Positions 6,608 through 16,957 of a stretch of 32,081 bases of DNA are shown piece by piece. The translations under genes and the position numbers were made by a program. Source of the stretch: a virus. The notes under the pieces are model-generated. The model was not told the DNA's origin. It worked only from the letters and a program-made list of their open reading frames with translations, and did no database searches. The stretch is from IMG/VR virus record IMGVR_UViG_3300017917_004794, positions 1 to 32,081 of that record; one strand, written 5' to 3'. The first letter of the stretch is position 1, and every line of letters begins with the position of its first letter.

Positions 6608-9600
6608 ATGGCTATATCTAATATAAATTCTACTTTATTTAATACTATTCAATATATAAATGGAGTTCCTATTTTATCTATAAATTATATAAATGGAATA
6701 CAAACTCCATTGACCCCCCCATCTCAATATTTGTTAATTGGAGGAGCATTTACTACATATAATGCACCCGCATTTGCATTAGGAGGATTTGCTAAATTAG
6801 ACTCTACAGGAAGTTTAGATCCTTCATTCAATATGGGAACGGGAACAACAGGTACTCCATATTTTTTTATCCAACAACCTGATGGAAAATATTTAACAGG
6901 AGGACTTAATATGACTACATATAGTGGATCCGCCGGTAATAGAATATTTAGGCTTAATCAAAATGGTACTGTTGATCCTACATTTATTTTTGGAGCAGGT
7001 TTTAACAATACCCCCAATGATGCTGCACCATTTCCTGACAATTCAAATCTAATAGTAGGTCTATTTTCTACATACAGTGGTTCTACTGTAAATGGTATAG
7101 TAAAAACTGCTCCTTCAGGTAATATAGACACATCATTTAATGCGGGTTTTGGATTTTCTCAAGCATTCGGAAATTGCATATCACTTCAATCCGATGGAAA
7201 AGCTATAATAGGAGTTCAATCTGCACAATATAGTAGTTCTAATAATTCTATAACTCGAACAGACCTTTCTGGTTCTTATAATGCTGGTCCTGGATCAACC
7301 TTTAATTATGGGGACGGAACGGCAAATTCTGGTCAGGTATATACTGCTGTTACCCAATCTGATGGTAAGATCATTTTAGGGGGAAACTTTCTTGCATATA
7401 GTGGTAGTGGTGCTGCTTATTTTCGAATAGTTAGAATTAATCCTGATGGAACCCAAGATCCTTCATTTGTAACTGGAGGTGGATTTAACAATCAAGTAAA
7501 TGCTCTTCAAATTCAATCTGATGGAAAAATTATAGCCATAGGAAATTTCACCAGTTATAATGCTTTTTCCATTAATCGTATAGTTCGACTAAATACAAAT
7601 GGTACTAGAGATGCTACATTTAATGCTGGTACCGGATTTCCTGCGGCAATGAATAACCTTATTATTCAACCGGATGGAAAAATTTTAGTAGCAGGAACAA
7701 GTACAACCTATAGTGGTTCTACAGTTAATTACTTAACTAGATTAAATACAGATGGTACTATAGATAATACATTTAATACAGGAACAGGACTTAATGGTAA
7801 TGTAAACGGACTAACATTACAATCAGATGGTAAAATAGTTATTGGAGGTTCTTTCACTACATATAGTGGTTCGGGTAATCTCCGAATAGTTAGAATTAAT
7901 TCTGATGGTACTAAAGATACTACCTTTAACATGGGTACAGGATTTAATAATATCTCATATGGAGTTGCCTTAGAACCAATTACTAATAAGATAATAGTAG
8001 CTGGTATCTTTACTACATATAGTGGCTCTTCAACTAATACAACCGGGATTATTCGCTTAAACCCAAATGGAACCCAAGATCCTTCTTTTATAACAGGAGC
8101 AGGTCTTTCAGGATTCTCTTCAATTCCCTCCCATCTTTCAGTTGAATCAGATGGAAAAATATATGTTGGTAATGTATTTGCTACATATAGTGGTTCTACT
8201 GTTAATAACTTTGTTCGTATTAATCCGAGCGGCACTTTAGATACTACATTTTCAGGGCAGATGCCTTCTCCAACTAATAGGGTAGGCTTTCGTGATATTG
8301 TACGTTCACTATTTATATCTTCATCAAATATATACTTTTTTGGGGATTTTTCTGGTTACAAACCAAATGCTCAAGGCCTTATAAGATTGAATACAGATGG
8401 TACTCAAGACATGACATTTGCTACAGGAAATAATCTTTCTAACGGTACTACTCCATTTGCTTTATTAACCCAAAATGATGGGAAAATCATAGTAATGGGA
8501 CAAAATATTGGGAACTATTCAGGATCCATTGCTAATAATAATATTTTTAGATTAAATCCTAATGGTACTTTAGATACTACATTTAATATAGGTGCAGGTC
8601 CTAATGGTCCTATAATATCCGCAGCTACTGAATCGAGTGGTAAAATTGTACTTGTTGGTGCATTTACAACATATGCTGGTGTTTCCTCTAATTGTATTGT
8701 AAGAATTACCAATTCAGGATCACGTGATGCATCTTTTAATGTAGGAACAGGATTTAATTTATTTGGATCAACCGCAAACTCAGGAAAAGTAATAGTAGCC
8801 CCAGACAACAGTGTTTACGTCACCAGTACATTTACATCATACAGTGGATCTATTAATGCCAGTAGAATTGTAAAAATCCAACCAAGTGGTGCTATTGATA
8901 CAACATTTGTTACTACTGCTTCATCATTTAATAATACTGCACTTGGATTCAATTCTGCCAGTAATGCTATAGTTCAAAGTGGTTCTAGTGTTATAGTTGC
9001 TGGAGCTTTTACTACTTATGAAGCTCCTATAATAAATAGAGGAGCTATGATTGATTTAACAGGGGCTATATCTTCTTCATTTAATATAGGAACCGCAGGA
9101 TTTGGAGGAAGTGTCCTTACATGGGCTACTCAGTCAGATGGAAAAATTTTAGTAGGAGGAGGTTTTACATCATATAGTGGATCATCGGCTAATAGGATAC
9201 TTCGTTTAAATCGTGATGGTACTCGAGATACTACATTTAATATAGGTACAGGAGCAAACGGTAATATTGTCACAATCGCGGTTCAATCAGATGGAAAAAT
9301 TATAATTGGAGGTGTTTTGAATACATATAGTGGCTCCGCAGTAGCTAGTAATATGACTAGACTAAACCCTAATGGTACTCGAGATACTACATACAACTTA
9401 GGATTCGGTTTTTCTCTTTCCCAAAATGTTTTCCACTCAGCACTTCAATCTGATGGAAAACTTATAGTAGTAGGACCGTTCACACAATTTAGTGGTTCAA
9501 CATCCAATCGCATAGTAAGAATAAACCCTGATGGCACTCGAGATACTACATTTAATATAGGCTCAGGATTTAACACTGATGCCCTGGCTGTAATAATCCA

Positions 9601-10111
9601 ACCAGATGGAAAAATAGTTACAACAGGAAACTTTACTTCTTATAGTGGCTCAGCTATTAACCGTATAGTAAGACTAAACCCTAATGGTACTCGAGATACT
9701 ACATTTAATGTAGGTACAGGATTTACAGCTTCTTCAGGAATATCATTAGCTCTTCAATCAGATGGTAAAATAATATGTGCTAATTTAAATCAACAATATA
9801 GTGGCTCTACTAATAGATATATAATTCGAATTAATACTGATGGTACTTTAGATAACACATTTAATGCAAATGCAAACGTTTCATTAACTGCTATTTCAGG
9901 TACCCCAAATAGTTTGGCGATTGATGCTAGTGGTTCAATATATTGGGGAAATTCATTTGCTACTTTTAGTGGATCTTTTACACCAAACCGTATAGTAAAA
10001 CTAAATACTAATGGAACAGTAGATGAAACATTTAATCAAGCATTCCCTAATTTTATTAACAATACAGGAAAAGGAGCAGATAGTACAGTAAACGCAGTAT
10101 TATTACTATAA
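6608..10111 (+). CDS. Giant delta-60-repeat (beta-propeller-like) structural/adhesion protein
   Basis: A 1167-residue protein made almost entirely of about 21 repeats of 50-56 residues. The core is QSDGKIIVGGNF, then TTYSGSxxNRIVRLN, then PDGTRDTTFNxGTGFN. This is the delta-60 repeat (DUF5122 type), predicted to form beta-propeller blades and usually found in secreted proteins of Bacteroidetes and Deltaproteobacteria. A short N-terminal segment (residues 1-45, with INGVPILSINYINGIQTP) precedes the repeats and could anchor it to the virion. There is no signal peptide and no sorting domain, so it is probably carried on the particle rather than secreted. It lies 9 bases after the fibre gene stop, without its own promoter motif. 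A host-surface binding role is inferred from repeats and position. Confidence 0.85.
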   Translation: MAISNINSTLFNTIQYINGVPILSINYINGIQTPLTPPSQYLLIGGAFTTYNAPAFALGGFAKLDSTGSLDPSFNMGTGTTGTPYFFIQQPDGKYLTGGLNMTTYSGSAGNRIFRLNQNGTVDPTFIFGAGFNNTPNDAAPFPDNSNLIVGLFSTYSGSTVNGIVKTAPSGNIDTSFNAGFGFSQAFGNCISLQSDGKAIIGVQSAQYSSSNNSITRTDLSGSYNAGPGSTFNYGDGTANSGQVYTAVTQSDGKIILGGNFLAYSGSGAAYFRIVRINPDGTQDPSFVTGGGFNNQVNALQIQSDGKIIAIGNFTSYNAFSINRIVRLNTNGTRDATFNAGTGFPAAMNNLIIQPDGKILVAGTSTTYSGSTVNYLTRLNTDGTIDNTFNTGTGLNGNVNGLTLQSDGKIVIGGSFTTYSGSGNLRIVRINSDGTKDTTFNMGTGFNNISYGVALEPITNKIIVAGIFTTYSGSSTNTTGIIRLNPNGTQDPSFITGAGLSGFSSIPSHLSVESDGKIYVGNVFATYSGSTVNNFVRINPSGTLDTTFSGQMPSPTNRVGFRDIVRSLFISSSNIYFFGDFSGYKPNAQGLIRLNTDGTQDMTFATGNNLSNGTTPFALLTQNDGKIIVMGQNIGNYSGSIANNNIFRLNPNGTLDTTFNIGAGPNGPIISAATESSGKIVLVGAFTTYAGVSSNCIVRITNSGSRDASFNVGTGFNLFGSTANSGKVIVAPDNSVYVTSTFTSYSGSINASRIVKIQPSGAIDTTFVTTASSFNNTALGFNSASNAIVQSGSSVIVAGAFTTYEAPIINRGAMIDLTGAISSSFNIGTAGFGGSVLTWATQSDGKILVGGGFTSYSGSSANRILRLNRDGTRDTTFNIGTGANGNIVTIAVQSDGKIIIGGVLNTYSGSAVASNMTRLNPNGTRDTTYNLGFGFSLSQNVFHSALQSDGKLIVVGPFTQFSGSTSNRIVRINPDGTRDTTFNIGSGFNTDALAVIIQPDGKIVTTGNFTSYSGSAINRIVRLNPNGTRDTTFNVGTGFTASSGISLALQSDGKIICANLNQQYSGSTNRYIIRINTDGTLDNTFNANANVSLTAISGTPNSLAIDASGSIYWGNSFATFSGSFTPNRIVKLNTNGTVDETFNQAFPNFINNTGKGADSTVNAVLLL
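6700..10050 (+). repeat. Tandem delta-60 repeat array (about 21 units, 150-170 bp each)
   Basis: Nucleotide-level similarity is strong in places. AATGGTACTCGAGATACTAC recurs at about 9368 and 9682, with close versions near 9212 and 9535. TCAGATGGAAAAAT and ACATATAGTGG(T/A/C)TC recur through the whole array. Adjacent 3' units are more alike than 5' ones, suggesting more recent duplication near the 3' end. Unit count was made by eye from the YSGS-type motif. Confidence 0.85.
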
Positions 10112-10477: not shown

Positions 10478-12220
10478 ATGGCAGAAACAATTGTATCCCC
10501 TGGTGTATTAGCAATAGAAAATGATCAATCATTTGTAACCCAACAACCCGTACAAGCAGGTGCTGCTATTATAGGCCCAACAGTAAAAGGCAAAGTAGGT
10601 ATTCCTACTATCGTAACTTCATATAGTGATTATTTAAATAAGTTTGGTGCTACTTTCCTTAGTGGAAGTAATACCTATACTTATTTTACATCAATTGCTG
10701 CCTACAATTATTTTAATAATGGTGGAGTTTCACTTTTAGTTACTCGTGTTGTAACCGGTTCATTTACATCTGCTACTTCTTCATTTATTTCCTCTTCTGC
10801 ACACAGTGCTGGTGCCCCTTACAATACTAATCCTTTTGAATTAGCCACTATTTCTCAAGGTGAAATTATGAATAGTACGGGCCCATCTGGACTCATAGGA
10901 ACCCTCCTTTCAGGATCAGCGGATAATTTTAGATGGCAAATTACAAATGCTAATACTAGTTCGGGTACATTTACTCTTTTAATTCGTCAAGGAAACGATA
11001 GTACAGTATCCCCATCAGTTGTAGAAACTTGGGGCCCATTGTCATTAGATCCATATTCACCAAATTATATTGAAAAAATAATTGGTAATCAAGTTGAAAA
11101 TGTAGTTTCTGATAATGGTGAATTTTACATTCAAACTTCTGGAAGTTATGTTAATAATTCTTCATGTGTTTATGTAAAATCTGTAAATCAACTAACACCA
11201 AATTATTTAGATAACGTTGGAAACCCAAAACCACAATATACAGGTTCAATTCCAATTAACTCAAGTGGTTCTTTTGGTGCCGCTACTGGTAAATTATTTC
11301 ATGGTGGAAATAACACCTACTACGAATCAATCACCTCAGCTACCAATATTCAAGGTATTCCTGCTAATGCATATACAGAATCTATTTCTTTATTAGCTAA
11401 TAAAGATGCATTTAACTATAATTTATTAGTTACCCCTGGATTATTAACCGATATGGGAAATCCAGCTGCTTCTGCTATTACTTCCATGATTAATATCGCC
11501 CAAAATAGGGGTGATATGATGGTAGTGTTTGATTCCTCTAAATATAACACCCAAATTAGCTCAGTATTAACTAACACTGCAGGATATGACACATCATATG
11601 CTGCAACATATTGGCCTTGGGTTAAAACAATTGATCCAAATACAGCAAATCAAGTTTGGGTACCGGCTTCAACAATGATTCCTGGTGTATATGCATTCAA
11701 CGATAATGTTGCAGCTCCTTGGTTTGCTCCTGCGGGTGTTAATAGAGGATTAATTCCTGTTGCTACACAAACAGAACGTGTATTAACTCAAGGTAATCGT
11801 GATACATTATATCAAGCAAATGTTAATCCAATTGCTACTTTTCCTAATACAGGTATAGTAGTATTTGGACAAAAAACATTACAGAAAAAACCAAGTTCAT
11901 TAGATCGTATTAATGTACGTCGTTTATTAATTGAACTTAAAAATTATATTTCTCAAGTTGCTGATACGTTTGTGTTTGAACAAAATAATGCTATTACAAG
12001 AAACAATTTCTTAGCGATTATTAACCCTTATTTGGCATCTGTTCAACAACAACAAGGTTTAACAGCATTTAAGGTTGTAATGGATGAATCAAATAATCCA
12101 CCTCAAGTAGTTGATAATAATCAAATGGTAGGCCAAATTTACCTACAGCCTACTAGAACAGCTGAATTTATTGTACTTGATTTCAATATATTACCTACTG
12201 GTGCAACGTTTCCTGCTTAA
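10478..12220 (+). CDS. 18: Tail sheath protein 1 (gp18-like)
   Basis: A 580-residue contractile sheath subunit. The N-terminus (VSPGVLAIENDQSF, then VQAGAAIIGPTVKG) is the typical sheath start, SPGVxxxExD plus GxAAIIGPTxKGP. The C-terminal domain (about 430-580) holds LTQGNRDTLYQANVNPIATF, VVFGQKTLQ, LDRINVRRLLIELKNYI and VGQIYLQPTRTAEFI, matching the conserved inner sheath domain that docks on the tube and carries the handshake strands. It is shorter than T4 gp18 (659), mainly in the variable outer domains. A close paralogue follows at 12267 and the tube protein at 14038. The outer middle region differs from the paralogue, while the C-terminal third is very similar. Confidence 0.96.
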   Translation: MAETIVSPGVLAIENDQSFVTQQPVQAGAAIIGPTVKGKVGIPTIVTSYSDYLNKFGATFLSGSNTYTYFTSIAAYNYFNNGGVSLLVTRVVTGSFTSATSSFISSSAHSAGAPYNTNPFELATISQGEIMNSTGPSGLIGTLLSGSADNFRWQITNANTSSGTFTLLIRQGNDSTVSPSVVETWGPLSLDPYSPNYIEKIIGNQVENVVSDNGEFYIQTSGSYVNNSSCVYVKSVNQLTPNYLDNVGNPKPQYTGSIPINSSGSFGAATGKLFHGGNNTYYESITSATNIQGIPANAYTESISLLANKDAFNYNLLVTPGLLTDMGNPAASAITSMINIAQNRGDMMVVFDSSKYNTQISSVLTNTAGYDTSYAATYWPWVKTIDPNTANQVWVPASTMIPGVYAFNDNVAAPWFAPAGVNRGLIPVATQTERVLTQGNRDTLYQANVNPIATFPNTGIVVFGQKTLQKKPSSLDRINVRRLLIELKNYISQVADTFVFEQNNAITRNNFLAIINPYLASVQQQQGLTAFKVVMDESNNPPQVVDNNQMVGQIYLQPTRTAEFIVLDFNILPTGATFPA

Positions 12221-12266: not shown

Positions 12267-13991
12267 ATGGCAAATTTTACAACTTCTCCTGGAGTAGCAA
12301 TTAGCGAAATAGATAATACGTTCTTAACTGGTCAACCGGTTCAAGCAGGTGCTGCTATTATAGGCCCAACTGTTAAAGGTCCTGTAGAAAAACCAACCCT
12401 AGTAACAACATATTCAGATTTCGTAACTTTATTTGGAGATACATTTATTAGTGGTGGTCAATCATATTCTTATTTAACTTCAATTGCTGCTGCTAATTAC
12501 TTTAATTATGGAGGAACTTCATTACTAGTTGCTCGCGTTGTAACTGAATCTGCTAACTGGACCCCAGCACAAAGTACTACAATTCCTTCTTACTTAAATG
12601 CGACATCTGCATCATTTGTTCTAGAAACACTTTCTGAAGGAGTTCTTATGAACAATTCAGGTTCAAACATGCTTGGAGCTTCGGGATCATTAATTTCAGG
12701 TTCAATATCTAACATTCGTTGGGAAATTACCAACTCTAATACTGGATCAGGCACATTTAATGTATTAATTCGTCGTGGTAATGATAATACAAATAGTAAA
12801 ATTGTATTAGAATCTTGGAACAATTTAACTTTAGATCCAAATTCAACACGTTATATTTCTAGAATAATTGGTGATCAAGTATTAGATTATAATTCTGTAA
12901 ATAATCAAATGGAATTGTCTGGTGAATATCCAAATAATTCAAAATATGTTCGTGTAAAATCTGTTAATTTACCTACTCCAAATTATTTTGATGCTAATGG
13001 AGTTGCAGTAAGTGCTTACACTGCTTCAATTCCACAAAATGGAAGTGGCTCAGCTGGTGGTTCATTCTATAACGCCGGAGGAAATGTAAATAGCAATATT
13101 ACTGTATATAATAATATTTCAACTAACACACAAGGGTTAGTAGGAGCTAGTTACAATAACATGATTGCACTTTTAGGTAATCCTGAAGCATATCAATTTA
13201 ATGTACTATTTACTCCTGGTTTGTTAAATGATACCCATGTTGCACAAGTTACTAACATTATCAATAACACAATTACTAGAGGTGATAGTTTATATGTAAT
13301 GGATTTAGGAGTATATGGTAGTTCACTTGGAGAAGCAGTAACACAAGCCCAAACTCGCGATACTTCATATGCTGCAACATATTGGCCATGGGTTCGAATC
13401 ATCGACCCAGCAACAGGAAAACATGTTTGGGTACCAGCTTCAACAGTAATCCCAGGTGTATATGCGTTCAATGATAAAGTATCAGCCCCATGGTTTGCTC
13501 CAGCAGGTATTAACCGCGGTGGGTTAAACACAGTTTTACAAGCTGAACTAAAATTGACACAAGGTAATCGTGACACATTATACAGCAATAATATCAACCC
13601 AATTGCAACATTACCTCAACAAGGTGTTGTAGTATATGGTCAGAAAACATTACAAAAAGCTCAATCTGCTTTAGATCGTGTAAATGTACGTCGTTTGATG
13701 ATTGAATTAAAATCATATATTCGTCAAATTGCAGATACAGTAGTATTCGAACAAAATACAATTGCAACTAGAAATTCATTTGTTGCCCGTGTTACTCCAT
13801 TCTTAGAAGGAATCCAACAAAAACAAGGATTATATGCTTACAAAGTAGTAATGGATGATTCAAATAATGGCCCAGCAGTAATTGATCAAAACCAATTAGT
13901 AGGTCAAATTTATATTCAACCAACACGTACAGCTGAATTTATCTCGTTAGATTTCATTTTAATGCCTACAGGAGCTGAATTCCCAGGGTAA
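12267..13991 (+). CDS. 18: Tail sheath protein 2 (gp18-like paralogue)
   Basis: A 574-residue second sheath subunit with the same architecture as the first: TSPGVAISEIDNTF and VQAGAAIIGPTVKG at the N-terminus, then LTQGNRDTLYSNNINPIATL, VVYGQKTLQ, LDRVNVRRLMIELKSYI and VGQIYIQPTRTAEFI at the C-terminus. Both copies keep the whole set of conserved positions, so neither looks like a pseudogene. Codon use differs slightly: this copy uses more C-ending codons near its 3' end, as the tube gene does, hinting at higher expression. Whether the two copolymerise, occupy different tail regions, or are used alternatively cannot be told from sequence. Each has its own promoter-like motif. Confidence 0.95.
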   Translation: MANFTTSPGVAISEIDNTFLTGQPVQAGAAIIGPTVKGPVEKPTLVTTYSDFVTLFGDTFISGGQSYSYLTSIAAANYFNYGGTSLLVARVVTESANWTPAQSTTIPSYLNATSASFVLETLSEGVLMNNSGSNMLGASGSLISGSISNIRWEITNSNTGSGTFNVLIRRGNDNTNSKIVLESWNNLTLDPNSTRYISRIIGDQVLDYNSVNNQMELSGEYPNNSKYVRVKSVNLPTPNYFDANGVAVSAYTASIPQNGSGSAGGSFYNAGGNVNSNITVYNNISTNTQGLVGASYNNMIALLGNPEAYQFNVLFTPGLLNDTHVAQVTNIINNTITRGDSLYVMDLGVYGSSLGEAVTQAQTRDTSYAATYWPWVRIIDPATGKHVWVPASTVIPGVYAFNDKVSAPWFAPAGINRGGLNTVLQAELKLTQGNRDTLYSNNINPIATLPQQGVVVYGQKTLQKAQSALDRVNVRRLMIELKSYIRQIADTVVFEQNTIATRNSFVARVTPFLEGIQQKQGLYAYKVVMDDSNNGPAVIDQNQLVGQIYIQPTRTAEFISLDFILMPTGAEFPG

Positions 13992-14037: not shown

Positions 14038-14526
14038 ATGGCAATTTTAAATCCAAACGAAATATTTTTCACAGCGTTTGAACCTAAACAATCCAACCGT
14101 TTTATCCTTTATATGGATGGTGTTCCATCATATTTGGTAAAAGGAGTAGGAGCTGTATCTTTAACACAAACTGCAGTTGCTCTCAACCACATCAACGTTC
14201 AACGTTATGTAAAAGGAAAAACTATTTGGAATACAATCCAATTCACAATGTATGAGTCAATCACACCAAGTGGTGCTCAAGCAGTAATGGAATGGGTACG
14301 TTTAGGCCACGAATCAGTAACAGGCCGTGATGGTTACTCAGATTTCTATAAGAAAGACATTACATTTAATGTAATTGGCCCTGTGGGTGATATCGTTTCA
14401 GAATGGATCATTAAAGGAGCTGTTATTACAGAAGTTAACTTTGGTGATTACAACTGGGATGATGACGGAACACCAGTAAACATCCAAGTAACTGTACAAC
14501 CTGACTACTGTATCTTGAACTACTAA
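14038..14526 (+). CDS. 19: Tail tube protein (gp19-like)
   Basis: A 162-residue protein, close to the 163 of T4 gp19. The N-terminal FFTAFEPKQSNRFILYMDG, the middle VKGKTIWNTIQFTMYESITP, SGAQAVMEWVRLGHESVTGR and the C-terminal WIIKGAVITEVNFGDYNWDD followed by NIQVTVQPDYCIL match the T4-type tube family, which stacks in hexameric rings inside the sheath. It follows the sheath genes directly, in the T4 order 18-19. A terminator hairpin begins 22 bases after its stop, closing the sheath/tube unit. Codon use is biased toward C-ending codons (ATC, AAC, TAC), consistent with a very highly expressed structural protein. Confidence 0.95.
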   Translation: MAILNPNEIFFTAFEPKQSNRFILYMDGVPSYLVKGVGAVSLTQTAVALNHINVQRYVKGKTIWNTIQFTMYESITPSGAQAVMEWVRLGHESVTGRDGYSDFYKKDITFNVIGPVGDIVSEWIIKGAVITEVNFGDYNWDDDGTPVNIQVTVQPDYCILNY

Positions 14527-14548
14527 GAACAAAACAACAGATATAATG

Positions 14549-14585
14549 AAAGCTCCAAAGAAATTTGGGGCTTTTATTTTCTTTC
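14549..14585 (+). terminator. Rho-independent terminator after the tube gene
   Basis: AAAGCTCCAAA (14549-14559), a GAAA tetraloop (14560-14563) and TTTGGGGCTTT (14564-14574) form an 11-bp stem with one G-U pair. A T-rich tract (14575-14585) follows. Like the terminator after the capsid gene it has a GAAA loop and follows an abundant virion protein. Confidence 0.9.
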
Positions 14586-14596
14586 AATATATTAGG
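14586..14596 (+). promoter_or_regulatory. Weak late-promoter-like motif AATATATTAGG
   Basis: A degenerate copy directly after the terminator and 3 bases before the ATG at 14600. The arrangement (GAAA hairpin, T tract, AATAT..TTAG, start) parallels that upstream of phoH at 168-231. The match to consensus is poorer than for the other sites. Confidence 0.35.
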
Positions 14597-14599
14597 ATT

Positions 14600-16567
14600 A
14601 TGAAAAACTTACTAATATTTCTTTTATTGACCAGTATTGGATACAGTCAATATTGTCCTGCTTTAGGACCTGATCAAATATTACCTTGTGGTGTAGGATC
14701 AACTACTTTAACCGCAAATCTAAGTCAATGTAGTGCAGGCACTAACCCCAATCAAACAACAAATTACACTGTAGGGAATATACCCTACGTTCCTCAATTA
14801 AATACTGGAACTCAACTGTTTATGACAGATGATTCTCAACAAGGACCATTCAATATTGGATTTACCTTTTGTTTTTTTGGACAAACATACACACAATTTT
14901 ATGTAGGTTCGAATGGATGGATTTCATTTAGTGCAGGCCAACCTACAACATTTACAACACAAACAATTCCAACAGGTAACTTTTTAGTACCTAAAAATTG
15001 TATAATGGGTCCTTGGCAGGATTGGCATCCTGGAATTGGAGGTCAAATCAGATATCAAACTACAGGAGTTGCTCCTTGTCGAAAATTAACTGTATCTTGG
15101 ACAAATGTACCAATGTTTAGTTGTACTGCTAATCAAGGAACTTTTCATATTGTAATTTATGAATCGTCTAATTATATTGAAAACTATATTCAAAACAAAC
15201 CCGCTTGCTTACAATGGCAAGGTGGAACAGCCACACAAGGTATTCATAATAACATAGGTACAACAGCAATAGCAGTACCCGGACGAAATTCCTCAGTTTG
15301 GACAGCAACAAATGATGCTTGGCGTTGGACTCCTAGTGGACCAGTAGTTAATCCTATTTTAGTATGGTATCAAGTAGGTAATCCTGCCCCAATTGGAACA
15401 GGAAATTCAATTACAGTTACACCAAACGGACCTACTCAATATACTTGTCATTTAAGTTATCCAACTTGTAATGCTGGTTGGAATGTTTGTAATGGAAATG
15501 GTACAGCTATTGGACCTGACACAATACTTGTTGTACCTGGTCCTCCAATCCCATCAACAGGACCTATTAATGGATTAGATACAATATGTTATTTAAGTCC
15601 AAATGAAATATATGATGTTCCTTTAAATCTTACTTATAATTATTTATGGAGTACAGTTGGACCTTTAACCTCAGGACAAGGAACAAATCAGATTACAGTA
15701 GATTTTAGTTCATTTCCTGCAGGATTTATTCCAGGCGCTGTTCAAGTAACACCTGAAGCAAATGGATGTGTTGGTCCAACAGTATCATTTGATGTAACAA
15801 TATTTAATGTAGTTCCTGTAATTGATCCTATAGGACCGTTTTGTTCATACGACGAATTTGTTACTTTAAACGCAATTCCTGTTGGAGGAGTATTTAGTGG
15901 AAACGGTGTTATAGGTAATAATTTTTATCCTGGAAACGCAATAGGAACAGATACTATAATTTACATTTATAATCAAAGTGGATGTATATTTGATGATACA
16001 ATCACAACAATTGTATATCCTCAACCAATACTTGATTCAATTACCCCGTACAATCCATTTTATGAAATATGTGAAGGTGATTCTGTGGTAACATTATTTA
16101 CCACTGTTTCTAATTTACCTGGTTATAATGAATGGTCTTTTATGGGATCAACTTATCAGCAAGATGATATTTCAATAACTTTTACTACTCCAGGAATGTT
16201 TCCTTTATCAGTAGTTCATTATTCAAATGGATGTGTCTCACCAATTCAACAAACAGTAATTACAGTTGTTACATGTCCTGAATTATTATTTTATATTCCA
16301 AACTCATTCACACCTGATGGAAATGAACATAATCAAAAATGGTTACCTGTATTTACCAATGGATTTGATTTATACAATTATCATTTACAAGTATATAACC
16401 GTTGGGGAGAAATAATATTTGAATCAAATGACGCCACAGAAGGATGGGATGGAACATATGGAGTACAAAATTGCCAAGATGGAACATATACATACGCAGT
16501 ACAATTTGTTGAATTCGATTCAGCTAGAGAACATGTATTAAAAGGTCATTTTACTCTTATTAGATAG
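14600..16567 (+). CDS. Secreted protein with type IX secretion (gliding-motility type B) C-terminal sorting domain
   Basis: A 655-residue protein. The start at 14600 gives a clean signal peptide (MKNLLIFLLLTSIGYS, lysine then hydrophobic core, likely cut before QYCPAL); the frame also opens at 14546 but that would translate a terminator. The mature part is Cys-rich and beta-rich. Residues about 60-255 form one domain (NIGFTFCFFGQTYTQFYVGS, NGWISF, IMGPWQDWHPG, FHIVIYESSNYIENYI), like lectin- or nidogen-type domains of Bacteroidetes surface proteins. PKD/Ig-like segments follow (about 280-560). The last 90 residues (IPNSFTPDGNEHNQKW, YNRWGEIIFES, GWDGTY, DGTYTYAVQF) are the gliding-motility-associated CHU_C domain, a type B sorting signal for the type IX secretion system. 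It is a host-type cargo lying inside a phage tail operon, after a terminator. Function is unknown; surface decoy, superinfection exclusion or adhesion are possibilities. Confidence 0.9.
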   Translation: MKNLLIFLLLTSIGYSQYCPALGPDQILPCGVGSTTLTANLSQCSAGTNPNQTTNYTVGNIPYVPQLNTGTQLFMTDDSQQGPFNIGFTFCFFGQTYTQFYVGSNGWISFSAGQPTTFTTQTIPTGNFLVPKNCIMGPWQDWHPGIGGQIRYQTTGVAPCRKLTVSWTNVPMFSCTANQGTFHIVIYESSNYIENYIQNKPACLQWQGGTATQGIHNNIGTTAIAVPGRNSSVWTATNDAWRWTPSGPVVNPILVWYQVGNPAPIGTGNSITVTPNGPTQYTCHLSYPTCNAGWNVCNGNGTAIGPDTILVVPGPPIPSTGPINGLDTICYLSPNEIYDVPLNLTYNYLWSTVGPLTSGQGTNQITVDFSSFPAGFIPGAVQVTPEANGCVGPTVSFDVTIFNVVPVIDPIGPFCSYDEFVTLNAIPVGGVFSGNGVIGNNFYPGNAIGTDTIIYIYNQSGCIFDDTITTIVYPQPILDSITPYNPFYEICEGDSVVTLFTTVSNLPGYNEWSFMGSTYQQDDISITFTTPGMFPLSVVHYSNGCVSPIQQTVITVVTCPELLFYIPNSFTPDGNEHNQKWLPVFTNGFDLYNYHLQVYNRWGEIIFESNDATEGWDGTYGVQNCQDGTYTYAVQFVEFDSAREHVLKGHFTLIR

Positions 16568-16570
16568 GTC

Positions 16571-16585
16571 AATATTTATAATCAT
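16571..16585 (+). promoter_or_regulatory. Late-promoter-like motif AATATTTATAATCAT
   Basis: A strict core copy between the secreted-protein stop and the ATG at 16586, which it abuts directly. The resulting message would be leaderless or nearly so, or translation would start from a longer upstream transcript. Confidence 0.6.
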
Positions 16586-16957
16586 ATGAAACTAGATAGT
16601 TTACGTACGTTAGTAAAAGAGGAGCTTAATAAGCGACTAAATGAAGAATACCAAGATAAATTTAAAATGGTAGGTATGCTTATTACCAACATTAAAAAAC
16701 GCCCTCAAAAAGAAATCTTTTCAGATATCCGCTCAATTCCTGGCATTACAGTAGCATCTGTAAAAGAACCTATGGAGTATAGTGAACAAAACACAGAAAA
16801 ATTTCAATCAATCATGACCGTTAAAGTTGACGGTCATCCTTGGATTGCTTCTGGTGGTTTTGATCGTTCAAAAATGGAAGACATACGTAAAGCAATATTG
16901 AAAGTAGAAGGAGTATTATCATATACTGTAAATCCTGATAATATTTCTGCTCTTTAA
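16586..16957 (+). CDS. Conserved phage protein, possible ferredoxin-like (ACT-type) fold, unknown function
   Basis: A 123-residue protein. After a charged N-terminal helix (LRTLVKEELNKRLNEEY) it reads KMVGMLITNIKKRPQKEIFS, DIRSIPGITVASVKEP, a central MTVKVDGHPW strand, then MEDIRKAILKVEGVLSYTV. The strand-helix-strand pattern with IPGI and VEGV turns is typical of ACT/ferredoxin-like folds, but no ligand-binding signature is clear. No known virion family is recognised. It has its own promoter motif and precedes the gp26-like gene by 40 bases. A tail assembly role is suggested only by position. Confidence 0.7.
   Translation: MKLDSLRTLVKEELNKRLNEEYQDKFKMVGMLITNIKKRPQKEIFSDIRSIPGITVASVKEPMEYSEQNTEKFQSIMTVKVDGHPWIASGGFDRSKMEDIRKAILKVEGVLSYTVNPDNISAL

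Follow-up and report, generated by a model that had tools for sequence, protein, structure and literature searches.

Type B substrates of the type IX secretion system (T9SS) require a cognate PorP/SprF shuttle and stay bound to it at the cell surface (PMC12618676, PMC9143113, PMC12635249), and their secretion depends on five conserved motifs, A to E, in the C-terminal sorting domain (CTD). The type B substrates of F. johnsoniae include SprB, Fjoh_3952 and the orphans Fjoh_1123, Fjoh_1720 and Fjoh_4934, and three of the 12 have no neighbouring shuttle gene (PMC12618676). In F. columnare, mutations in gld and spr genes lead to phage resistance (PMC9233685), and in Cellulophaga, gliding proteins have been linked to adsorption (PMC13288928). 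Phage genes with T9SS sorting domains have been published as well. For example, Cryophage has strain-variable cargo genes with type A CTDs (endoglucanase, GH39 and PA14 proteins), located in variable islands of this one phage, for which hijacking of the host system was proposed (PMC7468147). In crAss-like phages, T9SS-domain proteins beside BACON ORFs were noted in passing (PMC6949934), and a marine megaphage paper that compares LR745206 and LR756502 makes, in the part read, no mention of T9SS cargo (PMC9723777).

The locus described here lies in a virus record of 32,081 bases and 33% GC (IMGVR_UViG_3300017917_004794), analysed over its whole length and hereafter called the window. An open reading frame on its plus strand (14600-16567; the cargo gene) encodes 655 residues and resembles the F. 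johnsoniae substrates in its signal peptide and TIGR04131 CTD, in the PKD/SprB-type repeats that many members of its family contain and, as regards the three orphans, in having no adjacent shuttle gene. Unlike those substrates, it is phage-encoded and small, and the shuttle is absent throughout the searched phage records. The SprB-type gliding adhesin is very large, with SprB repeats and a linked sprF, whereas the cargo protein has neither. Like the Cryophage genes, this is a phage gene with a T9SS sorting domain, but the cargo family is type B, its members from several phage lineages fall in a single clade, and it has a preferred tail slot and empty sites. The crAss-like proteins also lie near structural genes, although these are head genes.

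Lambda-type morons such as lom and bor are accessory surface-protein genes that sit among tail and late genes with a separate transcription signal. The cargo gene is likewise an accessory surface-protein gene inserted among such genes, whereas lom and bor act in lysogens of enteric bacteria without a T9SS. The closest PDB fold matches for the whole model are GhpA of Aureispira (PDB 9flp and related entries), but GhpA is a bacterial protein of 5898 aa, and the likeness is limited to Ig/PKD/SprB-like repeats. The first-pass annotation, which knew of no described system of this kind in a phage tail operon, was thus only partly right: Cryophage and the crAss-like phages provide published precedents, while what appears, in the open-access literature, to be new is one type B family that is both widespread and mobile, prefers one slot, leaves that slot empty in some relatives, swaps its CTDs and has a split form. 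As a whole, we consider it probable that this is an accessory phage gene whose product is exported by the T9SS and mimics a host adhesin, perhaps for superinfection exclusion.

The cargo gene and its slot in the tail operon

Two sheath genes and then the tube gene lie 5' of the cargo gene, and a putative tail terminator gene and a baseplate hub gene (phrog_150, 3.2e-8) lie 3' of it (Table 1). The PHROG matches and the hairpin thus bear out the placement first described, between the tube gene and tail genes and after a terminator; the cargo protein itself matched no PHROG family. The longest reading of the frame begins at an in-frame ATG at 14546, and because this codon falls inside the terminator hairpin, translation probably starts at 14600. 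This hairpin (AAGCTCC...GGAGCTTTT, or the same with one base changed) also occurs in L085 and L101, both of which lack the cargo gene. The terminator is therefore taken to belong to the phage backbone, with the cargo gene inserted 3' of it.

Table 1. Coordinates in the window of the cargo gene's features and of the elements that border it
Feature	Position	Strand	Basis or remark
Tail tube gene, left border of slot	14038..14526	+	phrog_4542, 1.4e-21
Intrinsic terminator 3' of tube gene	14545..14578	+	15-pair stem and T run
Conserved A/T-rich element CAATATATTAGGATTATG	14584..14602	+	immediately 5' of, and including, the start codon
Sec signal peptide MKNLLIFLLLTSIGYS	14600..14647	+	by inspection; cleavage inferred before QYC
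N-terminal all-beta ectodomain (N-domain), residues 17-316	14648..15547	+	strongly conserved
PKD_6-like domain, residues 319-391	15554..15772	+	PF19408, 23 bits (cut-off 25), E 9e-5
T9SS type B sorting domain (CTD)	16295..16564	+	TIGR04131 positions 3-85
TATTTATAA element before putative tail terminator gene	16573..16581	+	candidate phage promoter motif
Putative tail terminator gene, right border of slot	16586..16957	+	weak: phrog_3907, E 0.0056; PF23818, E 0.0057

The motif TATTTATAA occurs seven times in the window (at 933, 10451, 12246, 14008, 16573, 18029 and 20250, all on the plus strand), against a mean of 3.06 matches in shuffled sequence. All seven copies lie 13-30 nt 5' of a start codon, mostly those of tail genes, and the relative L230 repeats the pattern, so that we regard the motif as a candidate phage promoter. 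No copy precedes the cargo gene. In most tail-slot relatives, TATATT is conserved about 11 nt before the cargo ATG, and the A/T-rich element may be the gene's own promoter; no clear terminator was seen 3' of the gene. Because TATTTATAA is lacking and another conserved element is present, we do not assume that the cargo gene is co-expressed with the tail genes. For the same reasons, and because the gene follows a terminator, the earlier proposal that the protein acts late in infection is less well supported.

The two sheath genes (10478-12220 and 12267-13991) are tandem and divergent; many relatives also have two, and Flavobacterium phage immuto and Microcystis phage Mel-JY01 each have one annotated sheath gene. 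Just 5' of the pair, 6608-10111 encodes a 1167-aa protein that has 18 DUF5122/delta-60 repeats (E 1.5e-191) but lacks a signal peptide and may be a fibre or adhesin; it has no match at this place in the fetched relatives. Other genes are found in the cargo slot too: in L109 a RecA/KaiC-like ATPase ORF (281 aa, identified by eye) lies between the tube and hub genes, and L108 has a different ORF. The region 3' of the tube gene seems to take up insertions in general.

Domains of the cargo protein and its route to the surface

The last 90 residues match TIGR04131 at 2.1e-16 and 54.9 bits (curated cut-off 35) and PF13585 CHU_C at E 2.8e-12 and 47 bits (cut-off 27), which supports well the reading that this is a phage gene for type B T9SS cargo; the coordinates first given are correct. 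The motifs IPNSFTPDGN, YNRWGEIIFES and GWDGTY are in place, the alignment places IPNSFTPDG, NRWG, WDG and a terminal G in the window CTD, and CHU_C is present in 46 of the 47 members of alignment A1. The signal peptide noted in the first pass is likewise visible on inspection: the leader looks typical of Sec by eye, residues 2-15 are helical in the AlphaFold2 model, and a counterpart is kept in relatives, in essentially all complete copies. No similar N-terminal leader was seen by eye on any other product of the window. The protein is also Cys- and beta-rich, as first described, with 19 Cys and a whole AlphaFold2 model that is all-beta (pLDDT 87).

Modelled alone, the N-domain has a confident fold (AF2 pLDDT 92, pTM 0.88). 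Its identity to 63 homologues is 33-93%, and it has no Pfam match, no PDB fold match at E<=0.001 and no PDB sequence match. Fold matches of the whole model in the PDB are Ig/PKD arrays at a TM of about 0.3, which tell little about function. PKD_6 is found in 32 of 47 family members and the SprB repeat in 21 of 47, and in many relatives extra SprB/PKD repeats sit just 5' of the PKD_6-like domain (alignment A1).

These repeats bear on the main rival to exclusion by mimicry, namely that the protein serves the ecology of the infected cell, making cells stick to one another or to particles and debris, or retaining released virions. Homologues of the family include Bacteroidota surface proteins that carry PKD/SprB repeats, the family profile matches repeats of GhpA, an adhesive grappling hook, and a secreted cohesin-domain protein of T9SS type A occurs both in a related phage contig and in immuto. 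However, the GhpA likeness is confined to generic repeats, and the window protein alone has no significant PDB sequence match. We regard adhesion of this kind as somewhat unlikely.

How the protein would leave the cell can be stated with more confidence. PorP/SprF (TIGR03519) was absent from all 26 phage records searched, including the genomes of 634 and 642 kb, and each homologue-bearing bacterial genome has 5-25 such genes. Since the searched phage records encode no shuttle, export must borrow one from the host. In L166 and L167, the two bacterial neighbourhoods in which the gene 3' of the homologue was scanned, that homologue also has no shuttle gene beside it, as with the F. johnsoniae orphans. 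Judging from its sequence, the phage protein is very likely exported to the cell surface by the host type IX system. From known type B biology, Sec export would come first, the CTD would then be recognised in the periplasm, and a host PorP/SprF-type shuttle would collect the cargo from the SprA translocon and hold it on the surface of the infected cell. Against this stands the fact that type B CTDs are rather shuttle-specific and no shuttle is supplied by the phage, so that an unmatched CTD would not be exported; among 16 genomes of one order, bacterial CTDs reach at most 48% identity to the phage CTD.

Dependence on a host shuttle also allows a different role, in which a short cargo poisons the T9SS or gliding machinery by filling the PorP/SprF shuttle and blocking SprB-type adhesins. 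Gliding or the renewal of phage receptors would stop, and the ectodomain would matter little. Consistent with this, type B cargo stays shuttle-bound (PMC12635249, PMC9143113), the phage brings no shuttle, and phage copies, mostly about 650-820 aa, are shorter than most bacterial homologues. Yet pure saturation would have no need of the N-terminal ectodomain, where conservation is highest, and we think such poisoning unlikely.

Occupied and empty slots

A scan of IMG/VR with the window protein found relatives of the cargo gene in at least 138 contigs, and the best 80 of these, which are fragments, were fetched for comparison of their loci. The syntenic copies that the first-pass annotation proposed to seek are common: in 57 of the 80 loci the cargo gene occupies the tail slot, with the tube and/or the tail-terminator/hub genes adjoining. 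The other 23 have other surroundings and lie in other phages, and LR745206 encodes the cargo gene as well. Many carriers are uncultured viruses of aquatic Bacteroidota-type bacteria. TIGR04131 was matched in all 28 records tested, above the cut-off in 27, with four matches in LR745206 (634 kb) and three in LR756502 (642 kb). A terminase is encoded by both megaphages and by several of the contigs in which the gene lies away from the tail slot, so these carriers are phages. Among 50,697 records no homologue was found in a cultured phage, the sole matches being three uncultured records.

Some phages have, besides the cargo family, larger proteins with type B CTDs (open frames of 833 to 1675 aa), at 574-4617 in L042, 15124-15387 and 578820-579077 in LR745206 and 519127-519381 in LR756502. 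In five carriers with the gene outside the tail slot (L042, L065, L070, L071 and L083), many unrelated small proteins start with an MKIIITE(E/S/N)Q-like or similar sequence, perhaps a shared processing or targeting leader.

A search with cargo itself selects occupied slots; relatives with an empty slot came from a search with the tube protein. In L085, whose tube and tail terminator proteins are 99% and 95% identical to those of the window, the two genes are separated by a gap of 81 bp. The slot is likewise empty in L101, L094, L096, L099, L112, L138 and L151, among the tube matches listed, and in the cultured relative immuto. The cargo gene thus separates, as a moron would, two genes that are neighbours in relatives, and because close relatives have an empty slot we consider it an accessory, moron-like insert. 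Chimerism or contamination was considered and rejected, since dozens of contigs show the same junctions. The sequence-based observations that the first pass had named as refuting are therefore not what was found: the CTD matches its family, copies are present in many phages, and the assembly is not chimeric.

The empty slots also bear on whether the protein is part of the virion. A tail-attached adhesin, exported or released on lysis, could decorate the tail and aid adsorption or attachment to surfaces; the frequent position in the tail operon would suit this, as would the all-beta, Ig/PKD-like domains, which resemble many tail and capsid decoration proteins. However, a structural tail protein would not be expected to be missing beside a near-identical tube and tail terminator, and members of the family are also found away from the tail operon, in phages whose sheath genes differ or were not detected. 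The promoter-like element that precedes the neighbouring tail genes is missing from the cargo gene. In addition, a signal peptide and a T9SS CTD would route a protein out of the cytoplasm, where tails are assembled. The virion-attached alternative raised in the first pass is weakened accordingly, and we find it quite improbable.

Separately, a four-gene set is common to a relative of the window phage (L229 1165-5614; G010:C1:93664-98113) and to the cultured phage immuto (L228 2192-5369; NC_055915). It encodes a cohesin-domain protein with a T9SS type A CTD, a small protein, a 240-aa secreted protein and a Ser/Gly-rich secreted protein. The 240-aa protein is 71% identical between the two and looks CsgG-like by eye, with no Pfam or PDB match. 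In immuto, the cohesin gene lies at 12691-13422 of NC_055915.

A split form of the cargo

Six contigs (L202-L207) have, in place of the single cargo gene, a row of three short genes whose products, of 205, 187 and 191 aa, all begin with a signal peptide of their own (3811-5576 in L202). The breaks between the genes coincide with domain borders of the unsplit protein. A type B CTD closes the third product alone; the C-termini of the first and second read PINHN and PIQHN, and this PIxHN motif was not found on secreted ORFs outside the split trio. Public viral proteins of similar size (A0A6J5NML0, A0A6J5NJX2 and A0A6J5L8Z9) are annotated as PKD-like or as having a gliding motility-associated C-terminal domain. 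As far as we found, split-type forms have thus been deposited but not discussed.

Phylogeny and exchange of sorting domains

The N-domain tree comprised 65 sequences, 42 from phages and 23 from bacteria, the latter obtained by a pattern scan. The 42 phage sequences all group in a single clade (100/97) next to Bacteroidota homologues. The bacterial sequences are nearly all from Bacteroidota MAGs, with one contig binned as Competibacteraceae, probably misbinned, and the N-domain was found in 45 of 395 genomes drawn from the same phylum. Copies from the tail slot and from other slots are intermixed in the tree, with at least 4-5 forced changes, and dN/dS between phage copies is 0.10-0.29. The sequences thus indicate that the cargo gene moves between phage lineages and between genome sites and that purifying selection maintains it.

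These results leave little room for a functionless passenger recently taken from a host, or for an assembly artefact. Patchy presence is what a passenger would show, and phages often pick up host genes, but the same junctions recur in dozens of independent assemblies, the phage copies form a clade apart from bacteria, and the low dN/dS holds over long divergence. We consider this reading highly improbable.

The CTD diverges faster than the N-domain and almost independently of it, the identities of the two correlating at only r = 0.45. For example, the N-domains of the window protein and its L005 counterpart share 94% identity and their CTDs 59%, and the CTD nearest to that of the window comes from L031, a phage whose cargo gene lies elsewhere. 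CTD alleles thus seem to be exchanged between copies. Because the shuttle reads the CTD (PMC12618676), swapping would be naturally explained by the matching of different hosts, and CTD alleles would then track the shuttles of those hosts. It could well be, though we would not call it probable, that a dedicated, horizontally moving family of adhesin mimics hijacks the T9SS in this way, exchanging its CTD for each host shuttle, with some members split in three.

A possible role in superinfection exclusion

In the explanation that we prefer, the conserved N-domain, which is shared with larger Bacteroidota surface proteins, would mimic a host adhesin or act as its decoy. The exported cargo would occupy shuttles and/or cover the surface, so that related phages could not adsorb through T9SS or gliding components. 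We prefer mimicry for exclusion to adhesion because of the phage resistance of gld and spr mutants of F. columnare and the link between gliding proteins and adsorption in Cellulophaga. Masking or a block to superinfection, both among the first-pass suggestions, is what we infer; superinfection exclusion as the main role of the protein is put forward tentatively.

In flavobacteria, phage resistance maps repeatedly to gliding and T9SS components, and few phage genes that act there have been described. A widespread clade of phage type B cargo is thus a concrete candidate that can be tested for a part in superinfection exclusion or in the remodelling of Bacteroidota surfaces, and would show phages exploiting the specific pairing of cargo and shuttle in the T9SS. 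For uncultured phage contigs, the gene also offers a clue to the host, namely T9SS-bearing Bacteroidota. Our results suggest that the viruses that carry this gene remodel the surface of the infected cell.
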